DNA from: an uncultured Anderseniella sp.
Lineage (GTDB): Bacteria > Pseudomonadota > Alphaproteobacteria > Rhizobiales > Aestuariivirgaceae
Length of the DNA stretch: 40,448 bases
Assembly: GCA_938039915.1 (NCBI GenBank)
Contig: CALHUA010000112.1
Coordinates: 1-40,448, forward strand
Reading direction: 5' to 3'
Below, one piece after another: positions 15,766 to 31,809 of the stretch. The notes under the pieces are model-generated. The model did no database searches and had not been told where the DNA came from. It was given only the letters and a program-made list of their open reading frames with translations. Position 1 is the stretch's first letter. The number at the start of each line of letters is the position of its first letter. Position numbers and translations under genes: made by a program.

Positions 15766-16233
15766 TTAACCCTTCGACAGCTTGTTCAGCTCGGCCCGTG
15801 CCTCAGACAAATCCTGTGTCGTCGCAGCCAGACGTTCTGCCAGCACTTTCATCAGATCAATTGCCATGGACGGAAATTCCTGCAGCAACTTCAGCAATTG
15901 CTCTTTCTCGATGCACAGCGTTTCAAGTCGGGTTGCCGCCCGCACACTTGCCGTGCGCGGTACATCACACAGAATGGCGATTTCTCCGATAATTGAATTT
16001 TCGCCGAGAGTTGCAACCACCACATCGCTGCCATTGATTTTGACGATCACTTCAGCCTTGCCGCACAGCACAACATAGGCTGCATCACCGGAATCATTCT
16101 GGTTGAACAGCATGTCGCCTTCGGTAAAAGTCAGGTGTTGTGACGTAAAGGCCAGCAACTTCAGCTGACTGGGTTGCAGCCCGGCAAACAAAGATACATT
16201 ACCAAGCATCTCGACTTCATCATTAAGCGCCAT
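15766..16233 (-). CDS. Stand-alone cyclic-nucleotide-binding domain protein
   Basis: A 155-residue protein consisting of one cNMP-binding domain (residues about 8-125) and a short C-terminal helix (130-155). The phosphate-binding cassette reads IIGEIAILCDVPRTASVRA, with Glu84 and Arg93 in the positions that hold the cyclic nucleotide ribose and phosphate, so binding is probably intact. There is no helix-turn-helix, so it is not a CRP-type transcription factor; it may instead control a partner protein. GGGAG precedes the ATG. It follows the ABC-like gene by 32 bases and precedes the FAD monooxygenase by nine, so it is probably co-transcribed with both. Confidence 0.88.
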   Translation of the reverse strand: MALNDEVEMLGNVSLFAGLQPSQLKLLAFTSQHLTFTEGDMLFNQNDSGDAAYVVLCGKAEVIVKINGSDVVVATLGENSIIGEIAILCDVPRTASVRAATRLETLCIEKEQLLKLLQEFPSMAIDLMKVLAERLAATTQDLSEARAELNKLSKG

Positions 16234-16265: not shown

Positions 16266-19010
16266 CTACTCTGCCAGCACTTTCGAATAGGCACCGCCAC
16301 TTTTCAACAGCGTTTCTCGCTTGCCCGTTTCCAGTACCTTACCACCTGCCATTACACATATTTCGTCAAAATCCGATGCAAGCTCAGCATCCGATACAAC
16401 CCACACAATGGCAGGTTTCTTCGGCTGCCGCGCCACATATTTCATTACGTCGCGCAAGATTGCGGCCTGTTGACGACCATCAAGTGCGCTGAGCGGACGA
16501 TTCAGAACCAGAAGGTCCGGCTGTTTGATCAGCGCGCGCGCAAGGCCCAATTTCTGCCGTTGCACGGAACTCAGCCGCTTGCCGGCAGACCCGATGTCGA
16601 ATTCCAGGCCCAGGTCGAGGATCTCGTCGCGCAACTGCATCTCCTTGAGCGTTGCCGACATCACCTCAAAAACTCTCTGCGGGCCCCGTGCGATGCCGTG
16701 CGCGACACGTCCCATCAACAGATTATCCTGAACCGAAGCGGCTGCGTTGTAGGTCTCCGGATCATAGAAGCTGATGCTGCCGGCAAGATTGTCCGGCAAT
16801 CCGTTCTTGAACCGGTTACGGCCATCCAGGATCCGGTCCTGCAGATCATCATCCACAAGGCCCATACGATGGCGCGGCTCCACATAAGAGAAGGTCAGTT
16901 CAATCAGCATGTAGCGTTCGTCAACCGTCAGGGCGCTCTCGGTTGTCTGCTTGGCGCGTTTCAAGAGGGCCGCATACTCTGGCAGGCGTTCAGCATCCAT
17001 GAACGTGATCTGGTTGAAGAATTCATGATCCGGCGGCAGGTCCTGGAACAGGCCAATGGTCGTCTCGGCAAGCTCTATGCCTTTTGCAACCAGCACATCC
17101 TCGAGGCCGGCATCCTGCAGAACGGTTCGAACATATTCGTTCTGTGCCAGTTTCTGCGGCGAAAATTCATCACCGACCGGCGTACCGAACAGCAGGTTTT
17201 CGCCAATTGTCGCCTGCACCGCATATTGCTGCGGATCAAACAGCTCAACCAGCTCTGACAGCTTCTGCTCTTCAATGCGCGACTTCAGGGCCTTTCGGGC
17301 TGCCAGAATGTTGTCGGCAAATTGTGGATTACTTTCCGGATCAACTTCACCACGCAATCCAAGATTGAACACATCATCTTCCAGGCCAGCGGCACACAAA
17401 ACCTCTACGAGGCGCTGATGGATAACCATGCCTTCGCCGCTGGCGGCAAGATCGTTGTCGATGCTCAGCCAGTCCGCATCGATATCCAGCTTGCTGTTGG
17501 CCGTGATGTCGGCCTCGTTCACAAAGCGCTGCCGGGTCATGGCATCAGGACCTTCGTAGGTCCGCTCCTGGACAGGTTGATGCTTGAGCGCATACAGCAG
17601 CCCGTCACGCAGGCTGCCCTGTGGCAGGAATATGTCGCTGGCAGCGTAACCGACCCGACGCCCGATGCAGCTCTCGCCGATATCGAACAGGTCCGTGCCA
17701 CCGAAACTGACCGAACCGGTATCCGGCACATAAAGCCTGACGATCGCATCAGCGAGTACATCAGCGCCGGAGTTTGAGGCACCGACTACAGCCAGACTGG
17801 TGCCCGCGGTAATTTTCAGCCGCGCCCGGTTCAACAAGGTCGTCCCGGTATCATCAGTAACTGTCAGATTGTTGATTTCAATCGGGAACGCCAGCGGCGG
17901 AACCGCTTCGTCCGGCAACGCCTGCAGCTTTTCGTCCAGCATGTCCTCGATATCGAACTGCTCCACAACCTGCGTGTACTTGACCTCCACATCAAGGCGT
18001 TGCTGATCCCAGTCGATCAGTTCCTTGATCGGCGACGGCAGGTCCTTGTAGGCGGCGATCACCGCAACCAGTTGGCCGACATCGATCTTGCCCTGCAGAG
18101 CAAAGTAGCCACCCACCACATAAAACAGGAACGGCGTGATTTGCGCCAAAAGGTTATTCAGGAACTTGGTGAAAAACTTGCGCTGGAACAGTTCGTAGCG
18201 AATGTAGAAAATCTTGGCCAGCCGGCTGGATATATCAGCGCGCTCATAATGTGACGTATCATTGACATGCACATGCGTAATGCCATCAACAATCTCGCCA
18301 ACCCGGCCGGCCAGCTTGCGCGCGGTGATCTGGCGTTCCTTGCCGAGGCGGATCAAGTGACGGCGCATTCTGGGAATGATGATGAACTGGATGCCGATCA
18401 TGAACATGGCAATCAGGCCCAGATAGACATTCTGCACCATGATAAAGGTCATGGCCGTAATGGCCTGGCCACCCAGCAACAAGGGTTGCACGAAGGCATC
18501 CCCCATGAAGCCGCCGATGGGCTCGACCTCGTCCTTGACCATGCTGGCCATCTCGGAGGATTTGATGCGCCGGAACGCCCGTACCGGGAACCGCAATAGC
18601 CGGTCCACCAGCGAATAGCGAATGCGCCGCAACATGCGCTCGCCAAGCCGGCCCTTGTAGGTATTGATATAAAATTTGAACAGGCCGTTGATGATAATCA
18701 ATGTCAGGAAAGTGCCGGACAGGGCGAACAGCATGTTCAGTCGTTCAAGCTGAAAACCTGAAAACAGCACCCATTCTTCACCGGAGAAAGTCCAGCTGAG
18801 TTTCATGAATGTCTGTTCGGCACCGGCGGTTTCAAATCCCTGCCCCAGGATCGGCCCATTGACGATCTGCTTGGGCAAATCCAGTGACATGAAATAAGTC
18901 GGCATGGACAACAGAACGATGAACAGAATGAATATCTGGGCTGGTCGCGAATGGGTCCAGGTGAATTTCAGGATATTCCGTTCAAGCATGGGCAGCCGTG
19001 TTCTGTGCAT
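16266..19010 (-). CDS. ABC exporter-like protein with degenerate, expanded ATPase domain
   Basis: A 914-residue type-I ABC exporter half-molecule. Residues about 20-335 are the membrane domain; the nucleotide-binding part runs from 376 to 905, more than twice the usual length. Walker A is GASNSGADV (410-418), lacking the P-loop lysine. The signature is LSSVQ (813-817). Walker B is LLVLNRPLSALD (833-844), with Asn-Arg in place of Asp-Glu. The switch histidine is replaced in VVSDAEL. Between Walker A and the signature the Q-loop/helical segment appears three times (about 453-557, 588-652, 746-812), each containing a SLRDGLL/TIGENLL/SVQDNLL motif. ATP hydrolysis is doubtful. The start at 19010 has AGG four bases upstream; an ATG at 18989 is possible. 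It overlaps the upstream methyltransferase-like gene. Confidence 0.85.
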   Translation of the reverse strand: MHRTRLPMLERNILKFTWTHSRPAQIFILFIVLLSMPTYFMSLDLPKQIVNGPILGQGFETAGAEQTFMKLSWTFSGEEWVLFSGFQLERLNMLFALSGTFLTLIIINGLFKFYINTYKGRLGERMLRRIRYSLVDRLLRFPVRAFRRIKSSEMASMVKDEVEPIGGFMGDAFVQPLLLGGQAITAMTFIMVQNVYLGLIAMFMIGIQFIIIPRMRRHLIRLGKERQITARKLAGRVGEIVDGITHVHVNDTSHYERADISSRLAKIFYIRYELFQRKFFTKFLNNLLAQITPFLFYVVGGYFALQGKIDVGQLVAVIAAYKDLPSPIKELIDWDQQRLDVEVKYTQVVEQFDIEDMLDEKLQALPDEAVPPLAFPIEINNLTVTDDTGTTLLNRARLKITAGTSLAVVGASNSGADVLADAIVRLYVPDTGSVSFGGTDLFDIGESCIGRRVGYAASDIFLPQGSLRDGLLYALKHQPVQERTYEGPDAMTRQRFVNEADITANSKLDIDADWLSIDNDLAASGEGMVIHQRLVEVLCAAGLEDDVFNLGLRGEVDPESNPQFADNILAARKALKSRIEEQKLSELVELFDPQQYAVQATIGENLLFGTPVGDEFSPQKLAQNEYVRTVLQDAGLEDVLVAKGIELAETTIGLFQDLPPDHEFFNQITFMDAERLPEYAALLKRAKQTTESALTVDERYMLIELTFSYVEPRHRMGLVDDDLQDRILDGRNRFKNGLPDNLAGSISFYDPETYNAAASVQDNLLMGRVAHGIARGPQRVFEVMSATLKEMQLRDEILDLGLEFDIGSAGKRLSSVQRQKLGLARALIKQPDLLVLNRPLSALDGRQQAAILRDVMKYVARQPKKPAIVWVVSDAELASDFDEICVMAGGKVLETGKRETLLKSGGAYSKVLAE

Positions 19011-19602
19011 CGGACCTGCTGCTTGCGGGACGCAGCACTACCAGCCGGCGGGCCCCGTACTCAGTCGTTTCAAATGCACCGTCTTCGATCGAAAAATCCA
19101 ATGAGCACACAGTCTCCATCTCGGGGCGGTTCAGCAAACTTTGCATCTGCTCGCTGGCTCGCTCAAGGTTGGGTGAAAACTCAACAATCGTAATGGCCGA
19201 ATTGTCGATCAGCGAGAACAGCTTCTGCCCGACCGCGTCCTGACTGCCAAAGGCCTTCAAAGAATACCCCACAAACACCAGGCCGTAACTGCCGGGTTGA
19301 AGGTCAAGATCGACATCCTGAAACTTGCGCGCAATATGGCGCACCCGGCACGGTTCCCCGTTCAGCATATCTGATTCGAACGGTTCGGATTTGGGATCAA
19401 CGCAAACAAAACTTTCAGGCACGCGACGCAGGAAGCCCGACACTGGCCGAAGGTGTCCGCCGATCTCTACAATGGTCGGCAACCCGTCGACGAAATGCGC
19501 CGCCATCGCCTGGCGCAGGTCGGCCGCCGGACCTGCCAGATGCGGCATCCCCGCCGGGCCGGCAGGCAGATCACCTGAGAATTTGGTGGCTGATTGCTGC
19601 AT
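18982..19602 (-). CDS. Methyltransferase-like protein of unknown function
   Basis: A 206-residue protein that I do not recognise as a named family. Its pattern suggests a class I SAM-methyltransferase fold: a strand-loop LPTIVEIGGHLRP (about 42-54) where motif I is expected, an acidic strand end SFVCVDPKSEP, then YGLVFVGYSLKAFG and AITIVEFSPNLERA. The glycine-rich loop is short, so catalytic activity is uncertain. ATG 19602 is preferred over the TTG one codon earlier. The 3' end overlaps the ABC-like gene by 29 bases (or eight if that gene starts at 18989), so the two are coupled. It is divergent from a second methyltransferase-like gene at 19708. Confidence 0.65.
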   Translation of the reverse strand: MQQSATKFSGDLPAGPAGMPHLAGPAADLRQAMAAHFVDGLPTIVEIGGHLRPVSGFLRRVPESFVCVDPKSEPFESDMLNGEPCRVRHIARKFQDVDLDLQPGSYGLVFVGYSLKAFGSQDAVGQKLFSLIDNSAITIVEFSPNLERASEQMQSLLNRPEMETVCSLDFSIEDGAFETTEYGARRLVVLRPASSRSDAQNTAAHA

Positions 19603-19707
19603 CAAATCTTCGTGGGAATGAGGTTACCGTCATGTTTTTGCTAGCATAGCGGCGGTTCATTGCTCATACCACTGCAAATCGCAACCAGTACCGCAAAGGT
19701 GAACACA

Positions 19708-20370
19708 GTGACTGAGCGCACTTTCAACAAGGATTATGTTTTCGACCTGTTGCGCGGCGCTGCCCGGTTTACAGGATCCGATCTGCTGTCAGCGCTTGCA
19801 GCGACCGTTGCAGAGTTTCCCGAAGCGCCCATAGACAACGCGTTCAACCACAAGCAGGTCGCCTCCAAGCAATGGGCCCGCGACATGCTGGCCACCCACA
19901 CACGGGGCACCTTTGATCACGTCTGGATCATGGGTGGATGGATCGGCATTCTGCCGGCCATGTTGTTTGACGATGCACGGTTCCGGATTGCAGCCGTCAG
20001 CAGTTTCGACATCGATCCCGCTGTCGCGCCGATTGCCGAAAAGCTGAACAGCAAACTGGCTGGCGAGGCAAGATTCAAAGCCCACACCGCAGACATGTAT
20101 GCGCTCGATTACAGTGGTCCCGACGCGCCCGACCTGGTGATCAACACAAGCTGCGAGCACATCGAAGACCTGCCGAAATGGTTATCCCTGCTGCCGCGCG
20201 GTTGCCGGGTCATGCTGCAGTCGAACAACTACACATCCGAACCTACCCACGTAAACTGCGTAGAGAGCGTCGATGAACTGGCCCAGCAGGCAGCATTGAG
20301 CGAGTTGAGTTACGCCGGTGCATTCAGGTTGCCGAAATACACCCGCTTCATGCTTATCGGTCGCGTATGA
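19708..20370 (+). CDS. Predicted class I SAM-dependent methyltransferase
   Basis: A 220-residue protein with a recognisable SAM-binding outline: FDHVWIMGGWIGILPAML as motif I, VSSFDIDPAV as the acidic ribose-binding loop, an ADMYALDY stretch for motif III, and LVINTSCEHIEDLPKW as motif IV. The GTG at 19708 is chosen because AAAGGTG lies about eight bases upstream; a longer reading from TTG at 19660 lacks a ribosome site. Substrate is unknown; being next to glycosyltransferase genes suggests a glycan or lipid target. Its last 17 bases overlap, tail to tail, the end of the glycosyltransferase gene at 20354. Confidence 0.72.
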   Translation: MTERTFNKDYVFDLLRGAARFTGSDLLSALAATVAEFPEAPIDNAFNHKQVASKQWARDMLATHTRGTFDHVWIMGGWIGILPAMLFDDARFRIAAVSSFDIDPAVAPIAEKLNSKLAGEARFKAHTADMYALDYSGPDAPDLVINTSCEHIEDLPKWLSLLPRGCRVMLQSNNYTSEPTHVNCVESVDELAQQAALSELSYAGAFRLPKYTRFMLIGRV

Positions 20371-21505
20371 ACGCCTCGTGGCGCTCCTGCAGAATGCCGG
20401 CGGTGGCCGCAGCGCCATCAAGCAGCAGGTTTGCCGTATAATCGCGCTCCTGCCTGCAGGCCTCATCAATTGCACATGCCATGCTTGCAGGCGACAGATC
20501 GTGTGCCGGAATGCAAACCGCCAGACCGGCAGCTTCAAGACGGGTGGCCCTGATTGTCTGTTCCTGCTCACCATGAGCGGCAAACGGCACCAGGACACTC
20601 GCGCACTGCGCCCGCAGAACGTCTGCCACGGTGTTGTAGCCGGCCTGCGACACCGACACCTGGGCCTGCCTCAGCAACGCTGCAAGGTCTGGCCGGAAGC
20701 GGAGGATCTCGACATTGTCCGAAGCCTCCGACCGCAGGCGCGAAACCGCTTCTTCTGGCAGGTTGGGCCCGGTGACGATCAGCCAACGTGCTGTGTTCAA
20801 TGATGTGAGCTCCCGTGCCGCCAGGCTCGCCCGCAACAGGTCCTCGCCCACCGCCCCACCACCTGCAGAGACGATCACATCGTACCTGTCGGCAACGGCC
20901 GGCTCAGAGTCATCCGGCGCGACCATGCCCGTATAGGCGGTTTTGTCCGAAATCAGCTTGGCAGCAGAAAAGGTTTCATCAAGCGTTGCAAAGCGTTTGT
21001 CACCGTGCACCAGCACCAGGTCAAAATAGTCCTGCACCAGTCGGGCAGTGGCCAGGTCACGCTTTTCCGACTTGGGCTGCAGGATATCGCGTATGGAGCT
21101 GACAACCATCGGCCGGCTGCCCGGCGGCATCGCTTTCACATGATCAAGCAAAGGCAACAGTTCAAACCGCATCTGGCGGCGGGCAAACGGGAATGCCTCG
21201 ACTATCAGGCAGTCGGGCTTGATGTTATCAAAAGCATCGATCAGGGCATCTTTTCTGGCCGCCAGGTAATCGTCGCCAGCCTCACGGCCGTGTTCGTCGG
21301 CGAGCCCGGAAAAACTGTGATCGGCACTGCACAGGGCCGGCAACCGGACATTGGCAATCTGCGCGGGCGGAAACCCGTCCACCGCCATGCCGCCGGTCAC
21401 CATCGTTACGCCATGCCTGTCGCACACCATTGCGCCGGCAACGCGGCTGGCGCGGACCAGATGCCCGATGCCGAGCAGGTGCTGCACATAGAACATCACC
21501 TTCAT
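20354..21505 (-). CDS. Predicted glycosyltransferase (COG4671 / GT28-like)
   Basis: A 383-residue GT-B-fold enzyme probably adding a sugar to a surface glycan. It starts MKVMFYVQHLLGIGHLVRASR, the glycine/histidine-rich opening of the COG4671 group. The C-terminal donor-binding half has VIVSAGGGAVGEDLL and VSVSQAGYNTVADVLRAQC, equivalent to the MurG/GT28 nucleotide-sugar site. It begins at a TGATG junction with the stop of the GT4 gene, so the three glycosyltransferases 23977-20354 form one unit. Acceptor and donor cannot be told from sequence. Confidence 0.82.
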   Translation of the reverse strand: MKVMFYVQHLLGIGHLVRASRVAGAMVCDRHGVTMVTGGMAVDGFPPAQIANVRLPALCSADHSFSGLADEHGREAGDDYLAARKDALIDAFDNIKPDCLIVEAFPFARRQMRFELLPLLDHVKAMPPGSRPMVVSSIRDILQPKSEKRDLATARLVQDYFDLVLVHGDKRFATLDETFSAAKLISDKTAYTGMVAPDDSEPAVADRYDVIVSAGGGAVGEDLLRASLAARELTSLNTARWLIVTGPNLPEEAVSRLRSEASDNVEILRFRPDLAALLRQAQVSVSQAGYNTVADVLRAQCASVLVPFAAHGEQEQTIRATRLEAAGLAVCIPAHDLSPASMACAIDEACRQERDYTANLLLDGAAATAGILQERHEAFIRDR

Positions 21506-22746
21506 CAGCCAACCCCTGCGCCGATTTTGGAAAACAGGTCCATCAACTGTTGTACGGACACCTGATGATCAAAGTGTCCGCGCACCTTGTTTTCCGCAGC
21601 AGTGCTCAACCGGGTACGCAAGGCAGGGTCGCGGGCCGCCCTTGTCAAGGCTGCGGCAAGCGACTTCGGATCATCGGCCTTGACCAGCAGCCCGTGGGTT
21701 CCATCGTCAATCAGCTCCGGCACTCCCGATACATCTGTCGACACACAGGCCAGCGCCTGAGATGCCGCTTCAACCAGAACGTTCGGCAATCCGTCGCGGT
21801 CCCCATCCGGCGCAATCCGGCAGGGCAACACAAATATATCTGCCGCACGATACAGCTTCAGCACATCTTCCTGGGCCATCGCTCCGTGCCAGGTGATCCG
21901 GTCGGCGACCCCCACCCTGTCCGCCTGTTGCCTCAGATCAGCCAGCAAATCGCCTCCGCCTGCGTGATCAAACCGCCAGTGAACATCCTCAGGCAACGCT
22001 GCCAGGGCGTCCAGCAACGTATCATAACCCTTCTTGGTGACGGCACGCCCGACACTCACAAACCGGACGGGTGCAGCCGCATCACGGCCGTCACGGCTGT
22101 GTACCCGGTTATCGAAAGCTGAAAACCGGGATAGGTCCAGCCCGTGATAGGAAAGATGCACTCGTGAGGGGTCGCTGGCCAATGACCGCAGTGCGTCACA
22201 TCCGTGACGTGTGCATGTCACCGCCCACGCCGCTTCGGCCAGCTTGTCGGCGAGATCCCAGTCCGGGCTGGTCCAGATATCCTTTGCGTGCGCCGAACAG
22301 GTCCAGTCAAGCTGCAGCATCATGGCCGCATACCGCACCACGGATGCCGGTGTATGAATGAAATGGGCATGCAGGGATGACACCGCATCTCCGCGCTCAG
22401 ACGCCAGAACCATTGCCTGCACGAAGCGGCGTACCCGATTGTGCGTTCTGTCACGCGCCCAGTCGCGCCGGAAAGTCCTGAAAGCAGCCCGATAACCTGC
22501 CAGCCTGCGCACTTTCAGCCACGCCCTGATACAGCGCGATGGTTCATCCTTGACGTATTCCGGCAGGTACATGACCGGGGCTCTTATTTCGTCATGCACC
22601 GGATGGCGCTTGGCATCGGTCGGCGTTCGCAGCGAAATGATTTCAAGCGGCAATCCCGCACGCTCCAGTCCGAGAATCTCCTGGGCGATGAATGTCTCCG
22701 ACAGGCGTGGGTAACCTTTCAGGACGAATGCAACCGGCTTTGTCAT
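21505..22746 (-). CDS. GT4-family glycosyltransferase
   Basis: A 413-residue GT-B enzyme. The N-domain contains VAFVLKGYPRLSETFIAQEI, a pattern shared with colanic-acid and exopolysaccharide glycosyltransferases (WcaL/AmsK-like). The C-domain has VRFVSVGRAVTKKGYDTLLDAL and the donor site DGLPNVLVEAASQALACVSTDVSG, the E-x7-E-like region of GT4 enzymes. I start the gene at ATG 22746, which has GGAAAG about five bases upstream and matches the family N-terminus; the open frame extends 30 codons further to 22836, but that part is unlike the family. It lies 19 bases after the previous glycosyltransferase gene. Confidence 0.86.
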   Translation of the reverse strand: MTKPVAFVLKGYPRLSETFIAQEILGLERAGLPLEIISLRTPTDAKRHPVHDEIRAPVMYLPEYVKDEPSRCIRAWLKVRRLAGYRAAFRTFRRDWARDRTHNRVRRFVQAMVLASERGDAVSSLHAHFIHTPASVVRYAAMMLQLDWTCSAHAKDIWTSPDWDLADKLAEAAWAVTCTRHGCDALRSLASDPSRVHLSYHGLDLSRFSAFDNRVHSRDGRDAAAPVRFVSVGRAVTKKGYDTLLDALAALPEDVHWRFDHAGGGDLLADLRQQADRVGVADRITWHGAMAQEDVLKLYRAADIFVLPCRIAPDGDRDGLPNVLVEAASQALACVSTDVSGVPELIDDGTHGLLVKADDPKSLAAALTRAARDPALRTRLSTAAENKVRGHFDHQVSVQQLMDLFSKIGAGVG

Positions 22747-22765
22747 GGTACTTTCCAGCAGCGGC

Positions 22766-23977
22766 TCAGCTTGTACCGGCAATGGCATAAAGGTCTGCAG
22801 CCGGTCGGCTGGCTGCCCATTTGCCAACAAAGGCATTTATCGTTTCAAGCCCATTAAGCATCTGCGTGCCTCCGGCGCCATCTGGCCGTGCCCGATCCGG
22901 CAATCTGGCCAGCGCTGCCGACAGCACAGCTGCATCGTCAGCATCGCCTGGCAGCATCATGTCGACAAGGTTCAATTCCTGCGCCCGGCGCGCCCGAATG
23001 AACTGTTCTTCGCGTGGATTGGTACGTGGAACGATCAGGGCCGGTTTGTTGAATGACAACACTTCGCAAAACGTATTGTAGCCGCACATGCCGACAATAG
23101 CCGATGCGCCCTCAATGAGATCTTCCATATTGTTGTCGAACTCAATGACATCAACATTGGCCATCACCTCACACTGCCGGAATATCTCGGCCCGCTTGTC
23201 GGCAGGCATCAGGGGACCCAGCACCAGCAAGGCGCGAGGCAGTTCATTCGCGCCGCACGCGTAAGCCGCCAGCACCTGGCGCATCAAACCCGCCCCATCT
23301 CCGCCGCCGCCGCCGGTGATCAGCAGATAAGGCTCGTTGGGCCGGTTCATGGTCACCGGCGAAGAAGATCGCGACCTGCGCAAAAACCCCAAATACAGCA
23401 TTTTTCGGCGCACCGCCTGAGACGCATCAAGCCCGCTCAGCGGGTCCCAGAAATCTTGCGGCCCATACACCCAGATATCATCATAAAGCTTTTCGACATG
23501 TTGCAGTGCGTCTGTCTTGGCCCATTCCTGTTTCAGCTTGTCAGCCGAGTCCATCACGTCCCGCAGGCCCAGAACCAGGCGACATCCCTGCTCCTTCAGA
23601 TACTGCAATGTCGGCAGCATTTCACCGCGCAGGCCCAGAGGCTCCTTGTCGACGATCATGATATCGGGTTGAAAGGATTCCGCGGTGTGCTGAATGATCG
23701 ACTGGCGCATCTGCAGCGTGTCGGTCAGATCGATGTGCTTGTCGATGGAGGTGTATTCGCCATTGTACAGCTTGATGACGGAAGGGATTTTGACAAAGTC
23801 CACGCGCGCAGAAAAGTTGAACGCACCGGCAATCTGCGATCCTGTAATGATAAGAATGCTGACGCCCTTGTAGTTTTCCACAAGTGAGTGGGCAATTGCG
23901 CGACAGCGGCGCAGGTGACCAAGCCCGAACGTATCGTGGCTGTACATCAGAATATGAACATTTCCGAGACGTTTCAT
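22766..23977 (-). CDS. Predicted glycosyltransferase (COG4671 / GT28-like), first gene of the unit
   Basis: A 403-residue paralogue-like partner of the enzyme at 20354. It begins VHILMYSHDTFGLGHLRRCR, and has LLITGGGGGDGAGLM and AIVGMCGYNTFCEVLSFNKPA in the nucleotide-sugar-binding half. The middle segment IMIVDKEPLGLRGEMLPTL, with the VLGLRDVMD that follows, is typical of the COG4671 group. The gene is first in a three-gene glycosyltransferase operon and has a 132-base leader region with three TCACA direct repeats. The product is probably cytoplasmic and membrane-associated. The sugar used is unknown. Confidence 0.82.
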   Translation of the reverse strand: MKRLGNVHILMYSHDTFGLGHLRRCRAIAHSLVENYKGVSILIITGSQIAGAFNFSARVDFVKIPSVIKLYNGEYTSIDKHIDLTDTLQMRQSIIQHTAESFQPDIMIVDKEPLGLRGEMLPTLQYLKEQGCRLVLGLRDVMDSADKLKQEWAKTDALQHVEKLYDDIWVYGPQDFWDPLSGLDASQAVRRKMLYLGFLRRSRSSSPVTMNRPNEPYLLITGGGGGDGAGLMRQVLAAYACGANELPRALLVLGPLMPADKRAEIFRQCEVMANVDVIEFDNNMEDLIEGASAIVGMCGYNTFCEVLSFNKPALIVPRTNPREEQFIRARRAQELNLVDMMLPGDADDAAVLSAALARLPDRARPDGAGGTQMLNGLETINAFVGKWAASRPAADLYAIAGTS

Positions 23978-24109: not shown

Positions 24110-25291
24110 CTACTTGTATGGATCGGCTGCATCACGAAGTCCATCGCCGAGGAAGTTGAATGCCAGTATAACCAGAACCACAGGCACCACCGGCAGCATC
24201 AGCCATGGATACAGCGCAACCACATTGATGTTCTGTGCTTCAATAAGCAGCACACCCCACGACGTTATCGGCGGGCGCAGGCCCAGGCCCAGAAAGCTCA
24301 GTGCTGTTTCGCCCAGAATCATGGTTGGAATGGCAATCGTTGCTGTCGCAATCAGGTGAGACATGAAACCCGGCACAAGGTGCAGGGATATGATGCGGGA
24401 CGGCTTGGCACCCATCAGTTGCGCCGCCATCACATAGTCTTCCTCGCGCAGTGAAAACAGTTTTGAGCGCACCGCCCTGGCCAGGCCGGTCCAGTCCAGC
24501 AGGCCAAGAATGACGGTGATGCCGAAGTACACCACCAGCGGACTCCAGGTCACCGGCATGATGGCCGCCAGCGCCAGCCACAATGGTATGGAAGGCAGGG
24601 ATTGCAGCACCTCGATTATTCGCTGAACCACCATGTCGACCCAGCCGCCATAGTACCCGGCCACACCACCAATAACGATGCCCAGCACGAAGCTGACCAT
24701 GACCCCAAGCAGGCCGATGGTCAGTGATATGCGGGCACCACCCATTATGCGCGAAAACATGTCCCGGCCCAGCCGGTCGGTTCCAAGCAGAAACAACTCG
24801 CCGTCGTGGGCTGGGCAGAACAGATGGGTTTCCATCTCCACCAGGCCCCACCAATGATATTTATCACCGGTGCAGAAAAAGCGGATCTTGTCCACTTTAC
24901 TGGTGTCTTTGGTGTATTCGCGCTTCAGCGTTTCCATGTTCAGCTTGTAGTTTTGCCGATACACAAACGGCCCGACAAACTCGCCTTCGTGGAACAGGTG
25001 CACCCGTTGCGGCGGCGAATAGATGTTGTCCACATTGCGCGTCTGGATATTGTATGGTGCCAGGAATTCGCTGATGAAAATGGTGGCATACAGGATGGCA
25101 AGGAAAACACCGCACCACACCGCAATCCGGTGTTGTCTGAACTTCCACCACATCAGTTTCCATTGCGGTGCGAGGTAGATTTTCTCCTGCTCGGGCGATA
25201 TTTTTTCGATCGACATGACATCGAACGGAGCTTCAGACACATAGTGCCCCATCTCTTTGCCGGGTGGCGGCAATGGCGACGTCATCTTCAT
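24110..25291 (-). CDS. Yej-type ABC importer, permease 2 (YejE/DppC-like)
   Basis: A 393-residue inner membrane permease for peptides or oligosaccharides. After a cytoplasmic N-terminus, one membrane helix lies at about residues 58-77. A long periplasmic loop of about 100 residues follows (rich in aromatic and charged residues, with CTGDKYHWW and HLFCPAHDGE); such loops are seen in YejE-type permeases and are longer than in DppC. The core five-helix BPD_transp_1 domain starts after FLLGTDRLGRDMFSRIMGGAR and contains the EAA loop YVMAAQLMGAKPSRIISLHLVP. Translation is coupled to the upstream permease by an ATGA overlap. It is the last gene of the four-gene importer. Confidence 0.87.
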   Translation of the reverse strand: MKMTSPLPPPGKEMGHYVSEAPFDVMSIEKISPEQEKIYLAPQWKLMWWKFRQHRIAVWCGVFLAILYATIFISEFLAPYNIQTRNVDNIYSPPQRVHLFHEGEFVGPFVYRQNYKLNMETLKREYTKDTSKVDKIRFFCTGDKYHWWGLVEMETHLFCPAHDGELFLLGTDRLGRDMFSRIMGGARISLTIGLLGVMVSFVLGIVIGGVAGYYGGWVDMVVQRIIEVLQSLPSIPLWLALAAIMPVTWSPLVVYFGITVILGLLDWTGLARAVRSKLFSLREEDYVMAAQLMGAKPSRIISLHLVPGFMSHLIATATIAIPTMILGETALSFLGLGLRPPITSWGVLLIEAQNINVVALYPWLMLPVVPVVLVILAFNFLGDGLRDAADPYK

Positions 25292-26286
25292 TTCGTATGT
25301 GCCCCCTGCAACCGAATGCGCGGGTCAAGCAGGGCCAGTGCAAAGTCCGAAATCAACACGCCGATGACCGACAGGCCTGCCAGGAACATCAGGAACGAGC
25401 CCGCCAGGTACATGTCCTGCGCCTGCAGGGCCCGTATCAGCAGCGGCCCGGTGGTTTCCAGCGACAGCACAATCGCGGTTATTTCCGCGCCTGAAATGAT
25501 TGCCGGCAGAATCGAGCCGATATCCGAAATGAAAAAGTTCATCGACATGCGCAGCGGGTACTTCATCAGCGCCTTGAACGGATGCAATCCCTTGGCGCGC
25601 GCCGTTATCACGTACTGTTTCTGCAATTCGTCAAGAAGGTTAGCGCGTATGCGCCGGATCATCCCGGCGGTGCCTGCGGTTCCGATAATGATCACCGGAA
25701 TAATCAGATGCTCCAGGATCGACTTGGCCTTGGCCCAGCTCATCGGCTGGTTGAAGTACTGTGCATCCATGAGGTGGCCGATTGAGGTTCCGAACCACAA
25801 ATTGGCCAGATACAGAAACACCAGCGCCAGCAGGAAGTTCGGTGTGGCCAGACCGAGCAGGCCGACAAAGGTCAACCCGTAGTCACCCCATGAATACTGA
25901 TGCGTCGCAGAGTAGATACCGATCGGGAAAGCAATGAGCCAGGTGAAGATAATGGTCACGAAGGACACCAGCATGGTGAGCCAGAGTCTGTCACCGACCA
26001 CATCCGTAACCGGCAATTCATACTCGAACGAATAGCCGAAATCGCCCTGCAGCATGCCCCACACCCAGTGGAAATACCGCTCTACCGGTGGCTTGTCGAA
26101 GCCGTATTGAACCTTCAGCGCCTCAATGGCTTTAAGGTCCACATTCTCGCCCTGGGCCTGGAGTTCGGCCACGTAGCTTTCAAAATAGTCACCCGGCGGC
26201 AGTTCGATGATAGCGAACACCAGCGCGGAGATCATCAACAGTGTGGGAACCATGACGGTGATACGCCATGCGATATATCTCAACAT
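25288..26286 (-). CDS. Yej-type ABC importer, permease 1 (YejB/DppB-like)
   Basis: A 332-residue permease with the DppB-type N-terminal helix (MLRYIAWRITVMVPTLLMIS), a periplasmic segment, and a BPD_transp_1 core with five further helices. The EAA-type loop reads YVITARAKGLHPFKALMKYPLR, which contacts the ATPase. The ATG follows the binding-protein stop by three bases and the stop overlaps the next permease by four, giving strict operon organisation. The order here (ATPase, binding protein, permease B, permease C) differs from E. coli yejABEF. The substrate is not evident. Confidence 0.88.
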   Translation of the reverse strand: MLRYIAWRITVMVPTLLMISALVFAIIELPPGDYFESYVAELQAQGENVDLKAIEALKVQYGFDKPPVERYFHWVWGMLQGDFGYSFEYELPVTDVVGDRLWLTMLVSFVTIIFTWLIAFPIGIYSATHQYSWGDYGLTFVGLLGLATPNFLLALVFLYLANLWFGTSIGHLMDAQYFNQPMSWAKAKSILEHLIIPVIIIGTAGTAGMIRRIRANLLDELQKQYVITARAKGLHPFKALMKYPLRMSMNFFISDIGSILPAIISGAEITAIVLSLETTGPLLIRALQAQDMYLAGSFLMFLAGLSVIGVLISDFALALLDPRIRLQGAHTK

Positions 26287-26289
26287 GGC

Positions 26290-28209
26290 CTAGTCGCTCC
26301 CCAATCCGTCTTGAAACCAGAATGTGTCGACCATGAACACGCCGAAATAACTGCCGGGCTGGAAGCTGTAGACTTCCTCCTTCGGCACGTTGTGCAGCCT
26401 TTTGCTGACCACGATCGGCTGCAATGTCGAATTGACGGTACCGATGGAAAACACCTCGCTGGTATACAGTTTCAGCATGTCGTTCCATATGCGTTCGCGG
26501 GTTTCGTCATCCCGCGACTGCTGCCATTCCTGCCACAGCGACAACAGGCGCTTGGCCGACGCCAGGTCCGGCTCGATGCCCGACTTGCCACCGGTCATGC
26601 CGTACAAACCCCATTGCGGCCACTGGGTCTGGGAATCATTGCTCGGCGCCAGTTCTTCCGGTGACATGGAGGGTTGCGGGATGGCGTTGTCCAGTCCGGA
26701 CCAGACGCTCATCATGGTATTGCCCGCCTTCAGCCGCGAGCGGAAGATATCGCGCTGCGTCGCCCGTGTAAAAACCTTGAGGCCGAGCGCCTGCCAGTGA
26801 TCGGTTATCAGTTGCAGCACATCGGTTTCGACCGTGCTTTCACCGGCGGTTTCAATAATCAGTTCTGCTCTTTTGCCGTCCGGCAGAAGACGGGTCCCGT
26901 CTTCGTCACGTTTTTCCAGGCCGACCTGATCCAGCAGTCGATTGGCCAGCACCGGGTCATGAGAAGCCCACGCACTGGCAAACTCAGGATTGAACAACGG
27001 GCTCTGCTTGAGCGGGGAATCCGCGACTTCCTTGCCCAGTCCGAAGAACGTCACCATGTTGATTTCGTGCCGGTTTATCCCCAATGACAGCGCCCGCCGG
27101 AACCGGGCGTCCTGCATGACGGCACGCCAGGTGTCGTCCTTGAAATTCAGATTGGGTCTGATGGCAACCTTGGATCCAACTGCCGACTTCCACAAAAGCA
27201 CGTTATAGCCCTGGCGTTTTTCGCTCTGCTTGAGAAACGTATAGTCTTCAAAACTGACATACCGGCCCTGCAGATCACTCTCGCCTGCCCCGGTCTTGGC
27301 AGGGATCAGGTTGGGCGACGAGATATTCATCTCCACTGTATCGATATAGGGAAGCTGGCGGCCATTTGCGTCTACCCGGTGGAAATAGGGATTACGCTTG
27401 AACACGAACTGTTCTGACGGCGGCGCGATCGTGTTGAACCACGGTTCCAATGTCGGCAAGTCCGGATTTTCCGGTCTGTTTTGCCGCCCCAGTCGAATGA
27501 ACATGGCGCGCCAATGCTTGTACTTGCGTTTTTTGGCCAGCGCCTCGGCCTGTTCCTCGCCAATATGGTCTGCATGAAACTGCTTCATGTAGGCGGAAGG
27601 ATAGGTCAGATACAAGGGAAGCGGCGCAGCCAGAGCAGGCAAGAACTTGGGGTTCGGATCGTCCCATTCATAGCGCACTGTTACTTCGTCTATCACGGTG
27701 AATTTTGGACCCTTGCCATTGACCAGCATGGAATTCGGCAGGCCGCCGCGCCGCAATTTCTTGTTCAGCATCACGTCTTCATAGGTGAAGCGAAAATCTT
27801 CCGTCGTGAACGGCGCGCCGTCGGACCAGCGGTGGCCGGGCCTCAGGTGCAGGGTAAAAATACGACCATCCTCAACATCGTAACTTGCCAGAATATCTGC
27901 CTGCAGCTTGTAGTTCGGATCATAACCGACAAGGCGCGAATAGCCGTAATAGACCATCATGCGAACGTCCTTCTTGGACCCCATCAGCATCCGCATTTTG
28001 CCGCCGTGCACGCCCGGCTTGCGCCCCAGTGCCGGCAGATCGATGACCCGTGGTTGCTGCGGCAGCCGCTTGGCCACTGGATCGATCTTGCCTGCCTTCA
28101 CCAGATCGTTGAAGTACGGGGTCTCCTCAAGCGTCATCGCAACTGCGTTGGCTTGCACCCCCAGCACCATCAGCATGGTCAGCAACGCTAGGCGTACACA
28201 GCTCATCAC
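26290..28209 (-). CDS. Extracellular solute-binding protein family 5 (YejA-like)
   Basis: A 639-residue periplasmic binding protein with a Sec signal peptide (hydrophobic residues about 6-24, cleavage predicted near ANAVA). The SBP_bac_5 domain covers the rest: DVEDGRIFTLHLRPGHRWSDGAPFTTEDF is the usual family signature, and LSLGINRHEINMVTFFGLG is the second conserved part. It is longer than DppA (about 535) and near the YejA class. The GTG at 28209 has AAGGAG eight bases upstream and overlaps the ATPase stop; ATG 28206 is the alternative. Likely ligands are peptides, but related proteins bind oligosaccharides or opine-like compounds. Confidence 0.88.
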   Translation of the reverse strand: MMSCVRLALLTMLMVLGVQANAVAMTLEETPYFNDLVKAGKIDPVAKRLPQQPRVIDLPALGRKPGVHGGKMRMLMGSKKDVRMMVYYGYSRLVGYDPNYKLQADILASYDVEDGRIFTLHLRPGHRWSDGAPFTTEDFRFTYEDVMLNKKLRRGGLPNSMLVNGKGPKFTVIDEVTVRYEWDDPNPKFLPALAAPLPLYLTYPSAYMKQFHADHIGEEQAEALAKKRKYKHWRAMFIRLGRQNRPENPDLPTLEPWFNTIAPPSEQFVFKRNPYFHRVDANGRQLPYIDTVEMNISSPNLIPAKTGAGESDLQGRYVSFEDYTFLKQSEKRQGYNVLLWKSAVGSKVAIRPNLNFKDDTWRAVMQDARFRRALSLGINRHEINMVTFFGLGKEVADSPLKQSPLFNPEFASAWASHDPVLANRLLDQVGLEKRDEDGTRLLPDGKRAELIIETAGESTVETDVLQLITDHWQALGLKVFTRATQRDIFRSRLKAGNTMMSVWSGLDNAIPQPSMSPEELAPSNDSQTQWPQWGLYGMTGGKSGIEPDLASAKRLLSLWQEWQQSRDDETRERIWNDMLKLYTSEVFSIGTVNSTLQPIVVSKRLHNVPKEEVYSFQPGSYFGVFMVDTFWFQDGLGSD

Positions 28210-30158
28210 GCGCGAAGCTCCTTCATGCTGGCTTGCGAATTGGCGAGCACCATGTGCCCGTCGCCTACATCAATGGAGGCCATCTCGCCGGTGTCGGTAG
28301 TCCGCTTGAAGACTTGCGGCCACAAGGTATCGTCAGATGCACCCGACAATGACAGTGTGTCATAGTCCAGAGGCCGGTCCAGGTCCGGAAACGGCACCGC
28401 GGCCAGCAGAGATCTTGTGTAGGGATGAACCGGGTTGCGGAAAATCTTTTCACGACTTGCCATCTCGACAATTCGCCCCTGGCACATCACCGCAATCCGG
28501 TCTGCCATATAGTCGATGACAGCCAGGTTGTGAGACACAAACAGATAGGTGAGATCAAGCTGGCTCTGCAGGTCCTTGAGCAGGTTCAGAACCTGTGCCT
28601 GCACCGACACGTCCAGTGCTGAAACAGGTTCATCGCAGATCAGCAGGCCGGGGTTGAGGGCAAGCGCCCGGGCAATGCCGATGCGCTGTCGCTGGCCACC
28701 GGAAAAGCTGTGCGGATACCGATTGAGAAATCGTGGATCAAGGCCGACTGCCTGCATCAGGCCGGCGGCATGCACGCGCCTGCTTTCAGCGCTGCCGATA
28801 CCGTGGATTTCCATGGGCTCGGTCAGAATATTGGAAACCGTCATGCGGGGATTGAGCGAGGAGAACGGGTCCTGGAACACCATCTGGACACGGGTGCGCA
28901 GTGTATTGAGTTCCGCGGCGTTTGCCCGGGCCATGTCGATTGGGGCGTGACCGCGGTCGGAATAGATGATCTCGCCGGCGTCGGGCGTAACGGCCCGCAT
29001 GATCAGTTTTGACACGGTCGTCTTGCCGCATCCGCTTTCCCCCACAAGGCCGAGACACTCGCCGCGCCTGATATCAAGACTGACACCGTCGACAGCCTTG
29101 ATGACATTTTCGTCCTTGCTGGAGAACCATCCGGATTTCTTGGTCACAAAGTGCTTCTGTAGGTTGTGGATGGACAGTAACGGTGTTTCGTCGGCGCCGG
29201 CCGTTTCATCCTCACCAGGTGCGACAACCGGTCGGTCCGTTTTTGCTTTGCCCTTCCCCGCCGCCGGGCCTTTCAGCAGTGTCGCAGCATCCACCTTGAC
29301 ATCGCGCAGCGACACCAGCCGCTCGCCGCGGCGCATGTCGAAGTGCGGAACCGCATTCAAAAGTGCCTTGAGATAGGGATGCTGCGGCGACCGGAAAATG
29401 TGGGACACCTGGCCTGCCTCAACAATCTGGCCGTGGTAAATCACCACCACGTCGTCCGCCATGTTGGCGACCACACCGAGGTCGTGGGTAATCAGCAGAA
29501 TGGCCATGTTGAAGCGTTCCTGCAGGTCTTTCAGCAATTGCAGGATTTGTGCCTGTATCGTCACATCAAGGGCTGTTGTCGGTTCGTCGGCAATCAGCAG
29601 CGCTGGCCGGCAGATCAGTGCCATGGCGATCATCGCCCGTTGGCGCAGGCCACCGGACAGTTCGAAGGAGTACATGTCATAGGCGCGTGAGGGATTGGGG
29701 AATCCGACGAGGTCCAGCATTTCTTCCGTCTTGGCCCGTGCCGCATTGCGATCCACGGGCTGGTGAAGTTGCAGCGCTTCTTCAATCTGGTTGCCGATGG
29801 TGTGCAGCGGCGACAGCGACGTCATCGGTTCCTGAAAAATCATGGCGATGCGCCCGCCGCGCAATTCACGCATTTCAGGTCCGCTGGGCAGCAGCTCTTC
29901 AATCTGGACCGGGCCGGACTTGGAGTTCGGATCATTGAAGGTAATCGATCCGCCGGCAATTGATCCCACTGTCGGCAGAATGCCCATGATCGACTGACCG
30001 ATCACGGACTTGCCGGAACCGGACTCGCCGACCAGCGCCGTCACCTTGCCTGGACGGATACGAAAGCTTGCTCCCTTCACCGCCTCAATAGTCGATGAAT
30101 GAACGCGAAAGCTTATCCGCAGGTCTTCAATCCGTAGAAGATCTTCAGAGGAACTCAT
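28206..30158 (-). CDS. Fused dipeptide-type ABC ATPase (YejF-like, two ATPase domains)
   Basis: A 650-residue protein with two complete ATPase domains in tandem, as in YejF (DppD and DppF fused). Domain 1: Walker A GESGSGKS (44-51), signature LSGG at 167-170, Walker B LLIADEP. Domain 2: Walker A GESGCGKT (373-380), signature FSGGQRQR, Walker B LLICDEP. An Ala/Lys/Pro-rich linker at about 295-325 separates them. All catalytic residues are kept, unlike the ABC-like protein at 16266. It is the first gene of the importer operon, read from a 271-base region shared with the divergent cyclase gene. Confidence 0.93.
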
Positions 30159-30429: not shown

Positions 30430-31809
30430 ATGTCATCCCCCCAACAACTTACTGAAATGTCAAAGTCCGATATGACTTCGGCATGGCGCAAACTCGGGGG
30501 CCTGTTACCAGGTGCAACACCGGCACGCGCACTCTCGCCCAGGGTACTGGCTTCGATCGAACGTCATGACCAGTCGAGCGAAGTGCTGATCAAGATTATC
30601 CAGCTGGTGATCGTATCGACCTGGGCGATTCTGTATGCGCTTGCGCCAAAGACCAGTTTCGGGACCGCGTTTTCTCCGGTCACCTGGGCACTGGCAATTT
30701 ACTTCGGCCTCAACGTCATCGGCCTGATCTGGGCGCGGCGCACAGGCCTGCCGAACTGGGCGGTTTATGTTTCGATCATATTCGATATTGCCATCCTGAT
30801 GGTTCTGATCTGGAGTTTTCACATTCAGTATGATCAGCCGCCATCGTTCTACCTGAAGGCACCGACATTGCTGTATGTGTTCATCTTCATCGCTTTGCGC
30901 GCCTTGCGTTTTGAGGCCCGCTTTGTGGTGTTTTCCGGACTGGCTGCAGCAGTCGGATGGCTCATCTTGGTCGCTTATGCGATATATTCCGCACATGGCA
31001 TGAGCACGACCCGCAACTACATCGATTACCTGACAGGCAACGAGATTCTGCTCGGTGCCGAGTTCGACAAGACCATAACCATCGTCATGGTGGCGGGCAT
31101 CATCGCTGTGGCACTGAGCCGTGCCAACGATCTGCTGGTCAGGGCAACTGCTGACGCGCAAGCCGCCACCGAACTGTCGCGGTATTTTGACAGCGCCGTG
31201 GCTTCTGATATCCGCAACGCCGATGAAGCAAGCGTGCCGGGTCAGGGCAAACGCGTCGAAGCGGCCATCCTCAATGTCGATTTGCGCGGGTTCACCAAAT
31301 ATGCCTCGGGCAAGGACGCTGAAAACGTACTCGGCCTGCTCATTGCCTATCAGAAACGTATTGTCGGTATCATCCAGAGTCACGGAGGATCCATCGATAA
31401 ATTCATGGGCGATGGCATAATGGCAACGTTTGGCGCCGTACGGGCCAGCGACACCTATGCCGCAGATGCTGTGCGCGCAATTGATGCGATAATCGCGGAA
31501 ACCGACACCTGGGATGCAGATGAAACCCTGAAAACATTTGCCGGCGGCAAGGTCAATGCAGCCGTGGCAGCCGGTCCGATTGTGTTCGGCACGATAGGCG
31601 ATGACTCACGACTGGAATTTACGGTGATCGGTTCGGCCGCGAACATGTCAGCCAAGCTGGAGAAACACAACAAGACCACCAGAAGCCGTGCCCTGACCGA
31701 TGGCTATACGTATGACATCGCCCTCGAACAGGGGTACGAGCCTGCAAAAACTCACCGTCGGCGCAAGTCAGCACTGGCGGGTGCTGATCAACTGGTGGTT
31801 CTGGGTTGA
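30430..31809 (+). CDS. Membrane class III adenylate/guanylate cyclase
   Basis: A 459-residue nucleotidyl cyclase making cAMP (or cGMP). Six hydrophobic helices at about 52-72, 82-101, 111-130, 145-160, 164-187 and 214-232 form a membrane sensor domain, followed by a short linker and a class III catalytic domain (275-445). Metal-binding Asp284 lies in NVDLRGFT and Asp328 in KFMGDG; Lys324 is in the place that selects adenine. The transition-state motif reads NMSAK (405-409), with lysine where arginine is usual. GGAGG lies six bases before the ATG. The gene ends overlapping, tail to tail by 22 bases, the deacetylase-like gene. It could supply the ligand for the cNMP-binding protein at 15766. 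Confidence 0.9.
   Translation: MSSPQQLTEMSKSDMTSAWRKLGGLLPGATPARALSPRVLASIERHDQSSEVLIKIIQLVIVSTWAILYALAPKTSFGTAFSPVTWALAIYFGLNVIGLIWARRTGLPNWAVYVSIIFDIAILMVLIWSFHIQYDQPPSFYLKAPTLLYVFIFIALRALRFEARFVVFSGLAAAVGWLILVAYAIYSAHGMSTTRNYIDYLTGNEILLGAEFDKTITIVMVAGIIAVALSRANDLLVRATADAQAATELSRYFDSAVASDIRNADEASVPGQGKRVEAAILNVDLRGFTKYASGKDAENVLGLLIAYQKRIVGIIQSHGGSIDKFMGDGIMATFGAVRASDTYAADAVRAIDAIIAETDTWDADETLKTFAGGKVNAAVAAGPIVFGTIGDDSRLEFTVIGSAANMSAKLEKHNKTTRSRALTDGYTYDIALEQGYEPAKTHRRRKSALAGADQLVVLG

Follow-up and report, generated by a model that had tools for sequence, protein, structure and literature searches.

Gene content of the locus

The window, that is the whole 40,448-nucleotide stretch of DNA that was analysed, contains on its minus strand an open reading frame for a protein of 914 amino acids (16266..19010), referred to here as the pseudo-ABC exporter, which has a 97% identical relative in an Anderseniella MAG. 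Its membrane half (residues 85–370; 17901..18758, minus strand) matches Pfam ABC_membrane (PF00664) over residues 95–318 with an E-value of 2e-16 and 60.9 bits (cut-off 28), and the ATPase half that follows matches ABC_tran (PF00005) in two separate stretches (1.5e-10, 42.3 bits, cut-off 25). This succession of ABC_membrane and ABC_tran is that of the ABC exporter fold, in agreement with the initial annotation, in which the membrane half was described as normal.

Read from 30158 to 15766, the minus strand encodes an oligopeptide-type ABC importer (24110..30158), consisting of a double ATPase, a family-5 binding protein and two permeases, and then three glycosyltransferases. These are GT28-like (22766..23977; Pfam Glyco_tran_28_C, 2.1e-8), GT4-like (21505..22836; NCBIfam EpsE, 2.9e-42, below the cut-off of that model) and again GT28-like (20354..21505; Glyco_tran_28_C, 6.9e-16). 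They are followed by a 207-residue ORF without a Pfam match (18982..19605), which overlaps the start of the pseudo-ABC gene by 29 bases and has homologues in 4 of 28 loci, by the pseudo-ABC gene itself, and by a gene for a small cNMP-binding protein. Two genes lie on the plus strand: a 236-residue ORF (19660..20370) with no Pfam match of its own, whose counterpart in relatives is annotated as a class I SAM-dependent methyltransferase, and a protein with a class III nucleotidyl cyclase domain (30430..31809; Pfam Guanylate_cyc, 2.3e-6). The importer genes have the same order in Sinorhizobium meliloti and Rhizobium etli; the order of the entire cluster is shared with pSymB of S. meliloti R28 and, without the methyltransferase, with R. 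etli CIAT 652. In Azospirillum and Sulfitobacter a form fused to the cNMP-binding domain is accompanied by the importer and glycosyltransferases, and the Mesorhizobium locus additionally contains an MBL-fold hydrolase, a DUF3095 protein and further cyclases.

Across the 28 loci, GT28-like genes were found in 17, GT4-like genes in 20, and the two groups of cyclases in 6 and 4, respectively. When the 44 members on loci of at least 14 kb are considered, relatives of the glycosyltransferases accompany 24, a cyclase 14 and the importer binding protein 10; the link to polysaccharide is therefore not universal at this flank size. Judged from gene neighbourhoods, the cNMP partner is near-constant, and the sugar genes are common without being universal.

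Several other proteins recur at the family loci. A metallo-beta-lactamase-fold protein (L034:6703-7545 and relatives, identified by Pfam) stands beside the pair in 7 loci and is possibly a cyclic-nucleotide phosphodiesterase. A class III cyclase with a 2Fe-2S ferredoxin-like domain (L047:5648-7345) is encoded near the pair and belongs to a group present in 4 loci, which poses the question of whether it provides a redox-sensing input. DUF3095 proteins are likewise seen in 4 loci (e.g. L047:1581-2720).

The degenerate ATPase half and its repeated segment

The ATPase half is about 540 residues long, consistent with the more than 500 residues estimated initially, Walker A and the signature being about 300 residues further apart than in MsbA-type exporters. 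Its Walker A motif (residues 410–417; 17760..17783, minus strand) reads GASNSGAD, with Ala in the position of the Lys, and does not fit the pattern GxxGxGK[ST]. In the Walker B stretch LLVLNRP (residues 833–839; the motif itself, 833–838, at 16497..16514, minus strand) the Asp-Glu pair is replaced by Asn-Arg. The signature is LSSVQ in place of LSGGQ (residues 813–817; 16560..16574, minus strand), and the residue aligned with the switch His, 873, is Ser. All of the losses listed in the initial annotation can thus be read directly in the 914-residue ORF, and, as far as motifs can tell, the ATPase half lacks the residues required for ATP hydrolysis. As a control, seven other exporter sequences from the same genome were inspected; Walker A fits GxxGxGK[ST] in all seven and the signature pattern is present in four, one of the sequences being cut by a contig end.

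The ATPase half contains three copies of the Q-loop/helical segment, which in canonical exporters is the part touching the membrane half. Copy 1 (residues 451–558; 17337..17660) contains GSLRDGLLYAL and AGLEDDV and has an internal insert, copy 2 (residues 559–650; 17061..17336) contains ATIGENLLFG and AGLEDVL, and copy 3 (residues 721–812; 16575..16850) contains ASVQDNLLMG and MQLRDEI and runs into the signature, all on the minus strand. Comparison by hhalign of family profiles built from 38 rows relates copies 2 and 3 with a probability of 99.0 (E 7e-18), copies 1 and 3 with 93.8 (E 1.7e-7) and copies 1 and 2 with 90.9 (E 1.1e-6); in 100 column shuffles the observed score was not attained for any of the three pairs. 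Of the 18 remaining segment pairs, 16 have probabilities of at most 5.5, and the other two, R1-WA (99.2) and R3-CT (66.3), score because the segments overlap in sequence. As cut, R1 and R2 also have 13 residues in common, but their alignment (457–553 with 592–646) falls outside these.

A profile of four canonical exporters from the same genome matches copy 1 (96.8) and copy 3 (91.9), and copy 2 only weakly (62.0); all three matches exceed 100 shuffles. The signature motif, common to both, explains why the profile also matches the C-terminal segment (92.5). Alignments with PDB exporters show this directly: their stretch from Walker A to the signature is paired with copy 1 next to Walker A and with copy 3 next to the signature. 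The three related segments proposed initially are therefore upheld by the self-comparison, the shuffles and the canonical profile, with the refinement that they are not uniform: an upstream “IL-AR” lead is common to copies 2 and 3 but not found in copy 1, and copy 1 has some 45 residues inserted into it, which makes its match a local one. Structure prediction, made from four near-identical proteins in each case, reached a pLDDT of only 34.9 for the pseudo-ABC exporter and 37.0 for the cNMP protein.

Family conservation and the cNMP-binding partner

Of 387 genomes sampled across the Alphaproteobacteria, 148 contain the family, as do 39 of 100 genomes of relatives; the class was assigned on the strength of the 97% match to the Anderseniella MAG. 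A sample of 397 genomes from the phylum gave 38 with the family, all 38 from the class of the window, the number of genomes outside this class in the sample not being shown. A search of genome contigs yielded three loci only. Among 72,556 plasmid records the family is present in 260; those with a name belong to rhizobia, Ruegeria, Sulfitobacter, Azospirillum, Methylobacterium and their kin, and a viral collection gave 19 pattern matches, none of them a relative of the family.

After deduplication 127 proteins remained, and 125 were aligned once two short fragments had been removed. The P-loop position is K in 37, R in 36, A in 31, G in 13 and another residue in 8; the next position, canonically Ser or Thr, is E in 64, D in 37, S in 4 and T in 4. 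The Walker B Asp position holds N in 80 and D in 19, and the catalytic Glu position holds E in 33, the complete Asp-Glu pair occurring in 4. The switch His is found in 15 members, the GG of the signature in 2 and a Walker A with both K and S/T in 2. No member possesses all six canonical features scored; three members have four and 63 have none. Close homologues with intact Walker A and B would have refuted the initial annotation; this check was made, and its outcome did not refute it. Loss of catalysis, as proposed there, is supported family-wide at the level of motifs, but it is graded: of the 80 rows outside the clade of the window, 37 have K and 36 have R at the P-loop position. That clade comprises 45 rows (support 95) in a tree of the membrane half, which was built by a quick method with SH-aLRT only and contains one extremely long branch (L101). 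Within it the Lys is absent and D or E occupies the next position in 45 of 45 rows, and at the Walker B pair 43 rows have N and 41 have R or K; these rows are not independent, several being from the same genus or near-identical.

The membrane half is the best-conserved part of the family (mean majority 0.63), and residues of the extra segments such as W514, R572, N605, R731, N763 and G767 are each conserved in 0.99–1.00 of the rows, above the Walker positions. Six pairs formed by the window protein and four same-genus orthologues give whole-gene dN/dS values of 0.030–0.065 at dS of 0.43–1.36, and the more distant L006 gives 0.152; for the C-terminal 67 residues a value of 0.371 was obtained in one pair. 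On this comparative evidence, motif loss and amplified segments are family-wide and under purifying selection.

Some members depart from the general pattern. L112 and L151, both fused, keep GKS and the Asp-Glu pair, have lost LSGGQ and the switch His, and are nearest to an ATP-binding form. L128 has 1340 residues. L042, L043 and L149 are broken or fragmentary, L043 being a second copy beside a full one in its genome. In the S. meliloti 1021 pSymB record (L065, NC_003078.1) one extra base early in the pseudo-ABC gene, relative to the 2011 and R28 records, splits the frame; it is either a true difference or a sequencing error.

The 155-residue partner (15766..16233, minus strand) matches Pfam cNMP_binding (PF00027, 1.7e-20) and no other Pfam family, and no DNA-binding domain was found in it. 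Its relatives are annotated as transcription factors, but in the absence of a second Pfam domain such a role is unlikely. In 97 of the 122 members with enough downstream DNA (three more had too little flank), the next gene downstream, on the same strand, encodes the cNMP domain; another 18 carry it fused to their C-terminus, and 7 lack it at this place. Two of these 7, one being the broken L149, have a cNMP match elsewhere in the fetched stretch. Pfam confirmed the fusion in all four cases tried (L038, L041, L063 and L064). Of the seven other exporters of the genome, one of which sits at a contig end, none has a cNMP domain beside it. The connection with the neighbouring cNMP protein suspected at the outset is therefore borne out as a gene association.

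The phosphate-binding cassette GE...R reads GEIAILCDVPRTA in the window partner. Of the 115 partner domains, 102 contain the pattern GE...R-T/S/N-A, and 95 read RTA; in eukaryotic channels and kinases a Thr at this position goes with the binding of cGMP. The pattern fails in 13 partners, of which 7 belong to the 18 fused forms and L115 is a further one; L107 and L108 have a near variant, and the others, among them most rhodobacteral fused forms, look divergent. From the residues present, the ATP site appears to have decayed and the cNMP site mostly to have stayed. PADLOC matches the signature region to mad3 and the cNMP protein to Pycsar/TIR effectors, yet the rest of the locus gives no hint of defence, and a defence-system reading was set aside; given the Pycsar matches and with no ligand data at hand, cyclic pyrimidine nucleotides are not excluded as the ligand.

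Proposed role and relation to known systems

The explanation that is favoured, with reservation, is that the pseudo-ABC exporter acts in the membrane as a cNMP-responsive regulator of, or gate in, an envelope-polysaccharide pathway, where ligand, binding and transport are all inferred. It rests on features read in the sequence: an exporter-type membrane half, a dead ATPase half, three Q-loop/helical copies and an adjoining or fused cNMP partner, as well as glycosyltransferases and a class III cyclase within the window's own cluster. Against it count the long loci without glycosyltransferase or cyclase genes, the 7 members that have no adjacent cNMP domain, the 13 partners in which the cassette pattern fails and the 2 of 125 members that retain K with S/T together with the Asp-Glu pair. 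The frequent placement of the family inside surface-sugar clusters suggests a cyclic-nucleotide switch for the making or export of coat polysaccharide. It is hypothesized that a cyclic nucleotide from the cyclases would bind the partner domain, which would dock on or beside the enlarged ATPase half; the coupling region would pass the change on, and the membrane half may then hold or release the machinery that makes or passes the glycan, the cNMP ligand taking over from ATP as the input. Whether the protein serves as a scaffold for glycosyltransferases or as a gate for glycan passage is not decided. The regulatory or scaffold role put forward initially thus gains support from the motif loss, the amplified segments and the cNMP pairing, but it is still an inference and gating of transport is not excluded.

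A bolder and speculative version, which has only a small chance of being correct, is that an ABC exporter has become a cyclic-nucleotide-gated machine, with ATP dropped, the membrane-contacting helical segment tripled as a docking platform and the membrane half driven or gated by the cNMP subunit or fused domain in the export of surface glycan. Similarly, the pair could form a passage through which the membrane half lets a glycan or a small ion pass, cNMP binding replacing ATP hydrolysis; the high conservation of the membrane half, the C-terminal fusion of the partner in 18 members and the fact that this is the sole exporter-type protein in the cluster would fit, but there is no evidence of a pore or of transport, uphill export without ATP needs another energy source, and this possibility is considered unlikely. 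Quite unlikely, too, is that nucleotide is still bound or turned over through an altered site, in which, for most members, the Mg-binding Ser/Thr of Walker A has become Asp/Glu and Asp of Walker B has become Asn, as though the acid had moved from one motif to the other. D or E at 417 in 101 of the 125 members and N at 837 in 80, with both in 76 rows, and the K or R kept at 416 in 73 speak for such a site. However, independent pairs on the tree show no covariation of the two changes (6 pairs, median p 1), for which reason the raw association is kept only as a rival, and the clade of the window has also lost the Lys and has Arg or Lys in place of the Walker B Glu.

Degenerate exporter halves of the TM287/288 type are well known, and the pseudo-ABC exporter might be such a half, powered by an intact one encoded elsewhere. 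TM_0288 is among its PDB matches and the genome has other exporters with an intact Walker A (all seven extracted), but no exporter ORF from outside the family was found in the family loci (71 loci of at least 9 kb; phmmer, E 1e-10), four extra matches being fragments of family members, although more divergent exporters would be missed. Degenerate halves usually retain part of the site, whereas here both Walker motifs, the signature and the switch are hit, and a heterodimer half would not need a dedicated cNMP subunit; the proposal is regarded as improbable. Local decay or a sequencing error, for which only the broken copies elsewhere in the family (L149, L042 and L043) could be cited, is contradicted by open full-length orthologues of 88–97% identity with the same motifs and by dN/dS far below 1, and can be practically dismissed.

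A phenotype may be connected to the pseudo-ABC exporter through S. meliloti, where nine genes between smb21252 and smb21271 make the uncharacterised phazolicin-protecting polysaccharide, PPP (PMC10128002). Insertions in this region lower fitness under phazolicin, smb21265 is described as a “glycosyltransferase family protein”, and the mutant data in the available passages concern smb21252 and smb21265 only; a mutant of the chromosomal cyclase cyaA was depleted in the phazolicin screen, with an MIC change of only about twofold (PMC10128002). Seven of the nine PPP genes are up-regulated under Myxococcus attack (PMC10315480), and SM_b21272 is a LacI regulator (PMC11387232). In R28 there are exactly eight genes from the first such glycosyltransferase to a LacI regulator, the pseudo-ABC gene being the fifth and the cNMP gene the sixth, and SMb21265 to SMb21272 likewise make eight tags. 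The pseudo-ABC exporter would accordingly be SMb21269 and the cNMP protein SMb21270, an assignment inferred from gene order, as the source passages do not name the gene. By the same reasoning, the genes and their order being as in the S. meliloti region, the part syntenic with the window locus would be the PPP surface-polysaccharide cluster. SMb20813, called an msbA homologue in PMC10945364, was considered as the orthologue and rejected, because nothing in the accessible text ties it to the locus. As to control by Clr, the passages available from PMC5498481 concern the nodP2-smb21248 region and contain no tag of the SMb2125x-2127x series; none of the tags sought for the locus was found in PMC7268258.

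The family, in over a third of the 387 genomes of the class, combines a lost ATP engine and a copied coupling segment with a second-messenger sensor that was kept, and it would offer a post-translational route from cAMP or cGMP to surface polysaccharide in rhizobia. Since mutants are already known for the region that contains the candidate rhizobial orthologue, the idea is testable by knock-outs and binding assays. No earlier description of the family was found among open-licence PMC papers.

The best NCBIfam match is to MsbA-type exporters (TIGR02203, E 4e-49), which have the same domain order, but the 167.6 bits are far from the equivalog cut-off of 602, and the pseudo-ABC exporter differs from this type by the absence of catalytic motifs and by the roughly 300 residues added between Walker A and the signature. 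Heterodimeric exporters such as TM287/288 and TAP, in which one site is degenerate, resemble it in the exporter fold and the non-canonical ATP site; unlike them, it has no linked intact half that could be found, carries extra modules and a cNMP partner, and is altered in both Walker motifs, the signature and the switch. HetC of Nostoc is not known to contain helical-segment copies. For HetC, an ABC exporter and a cyclic nucleotide-binding domain are discussed together in the available passages, but it is a peptidase-type exporter reported to drive export (PMC10986499). The PPP cluster of S. meliloti is related by context, with the orthologue inside smb21252-smb21271 by gene order, although the gene is not named in the PPP passages at hand (PMC10128002). 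ABC proteins that gave up transport are rare, and the textbook cases, SUR and CFTR, are eukaryotic. SUR1-type regulators and the CFTR channel likewise use the ABC-exporter fold as a regulator or a channel; unlike the pseudo-ABC exporter, they keep at least one working ATP site and have no such cNMP-binding partner domain.
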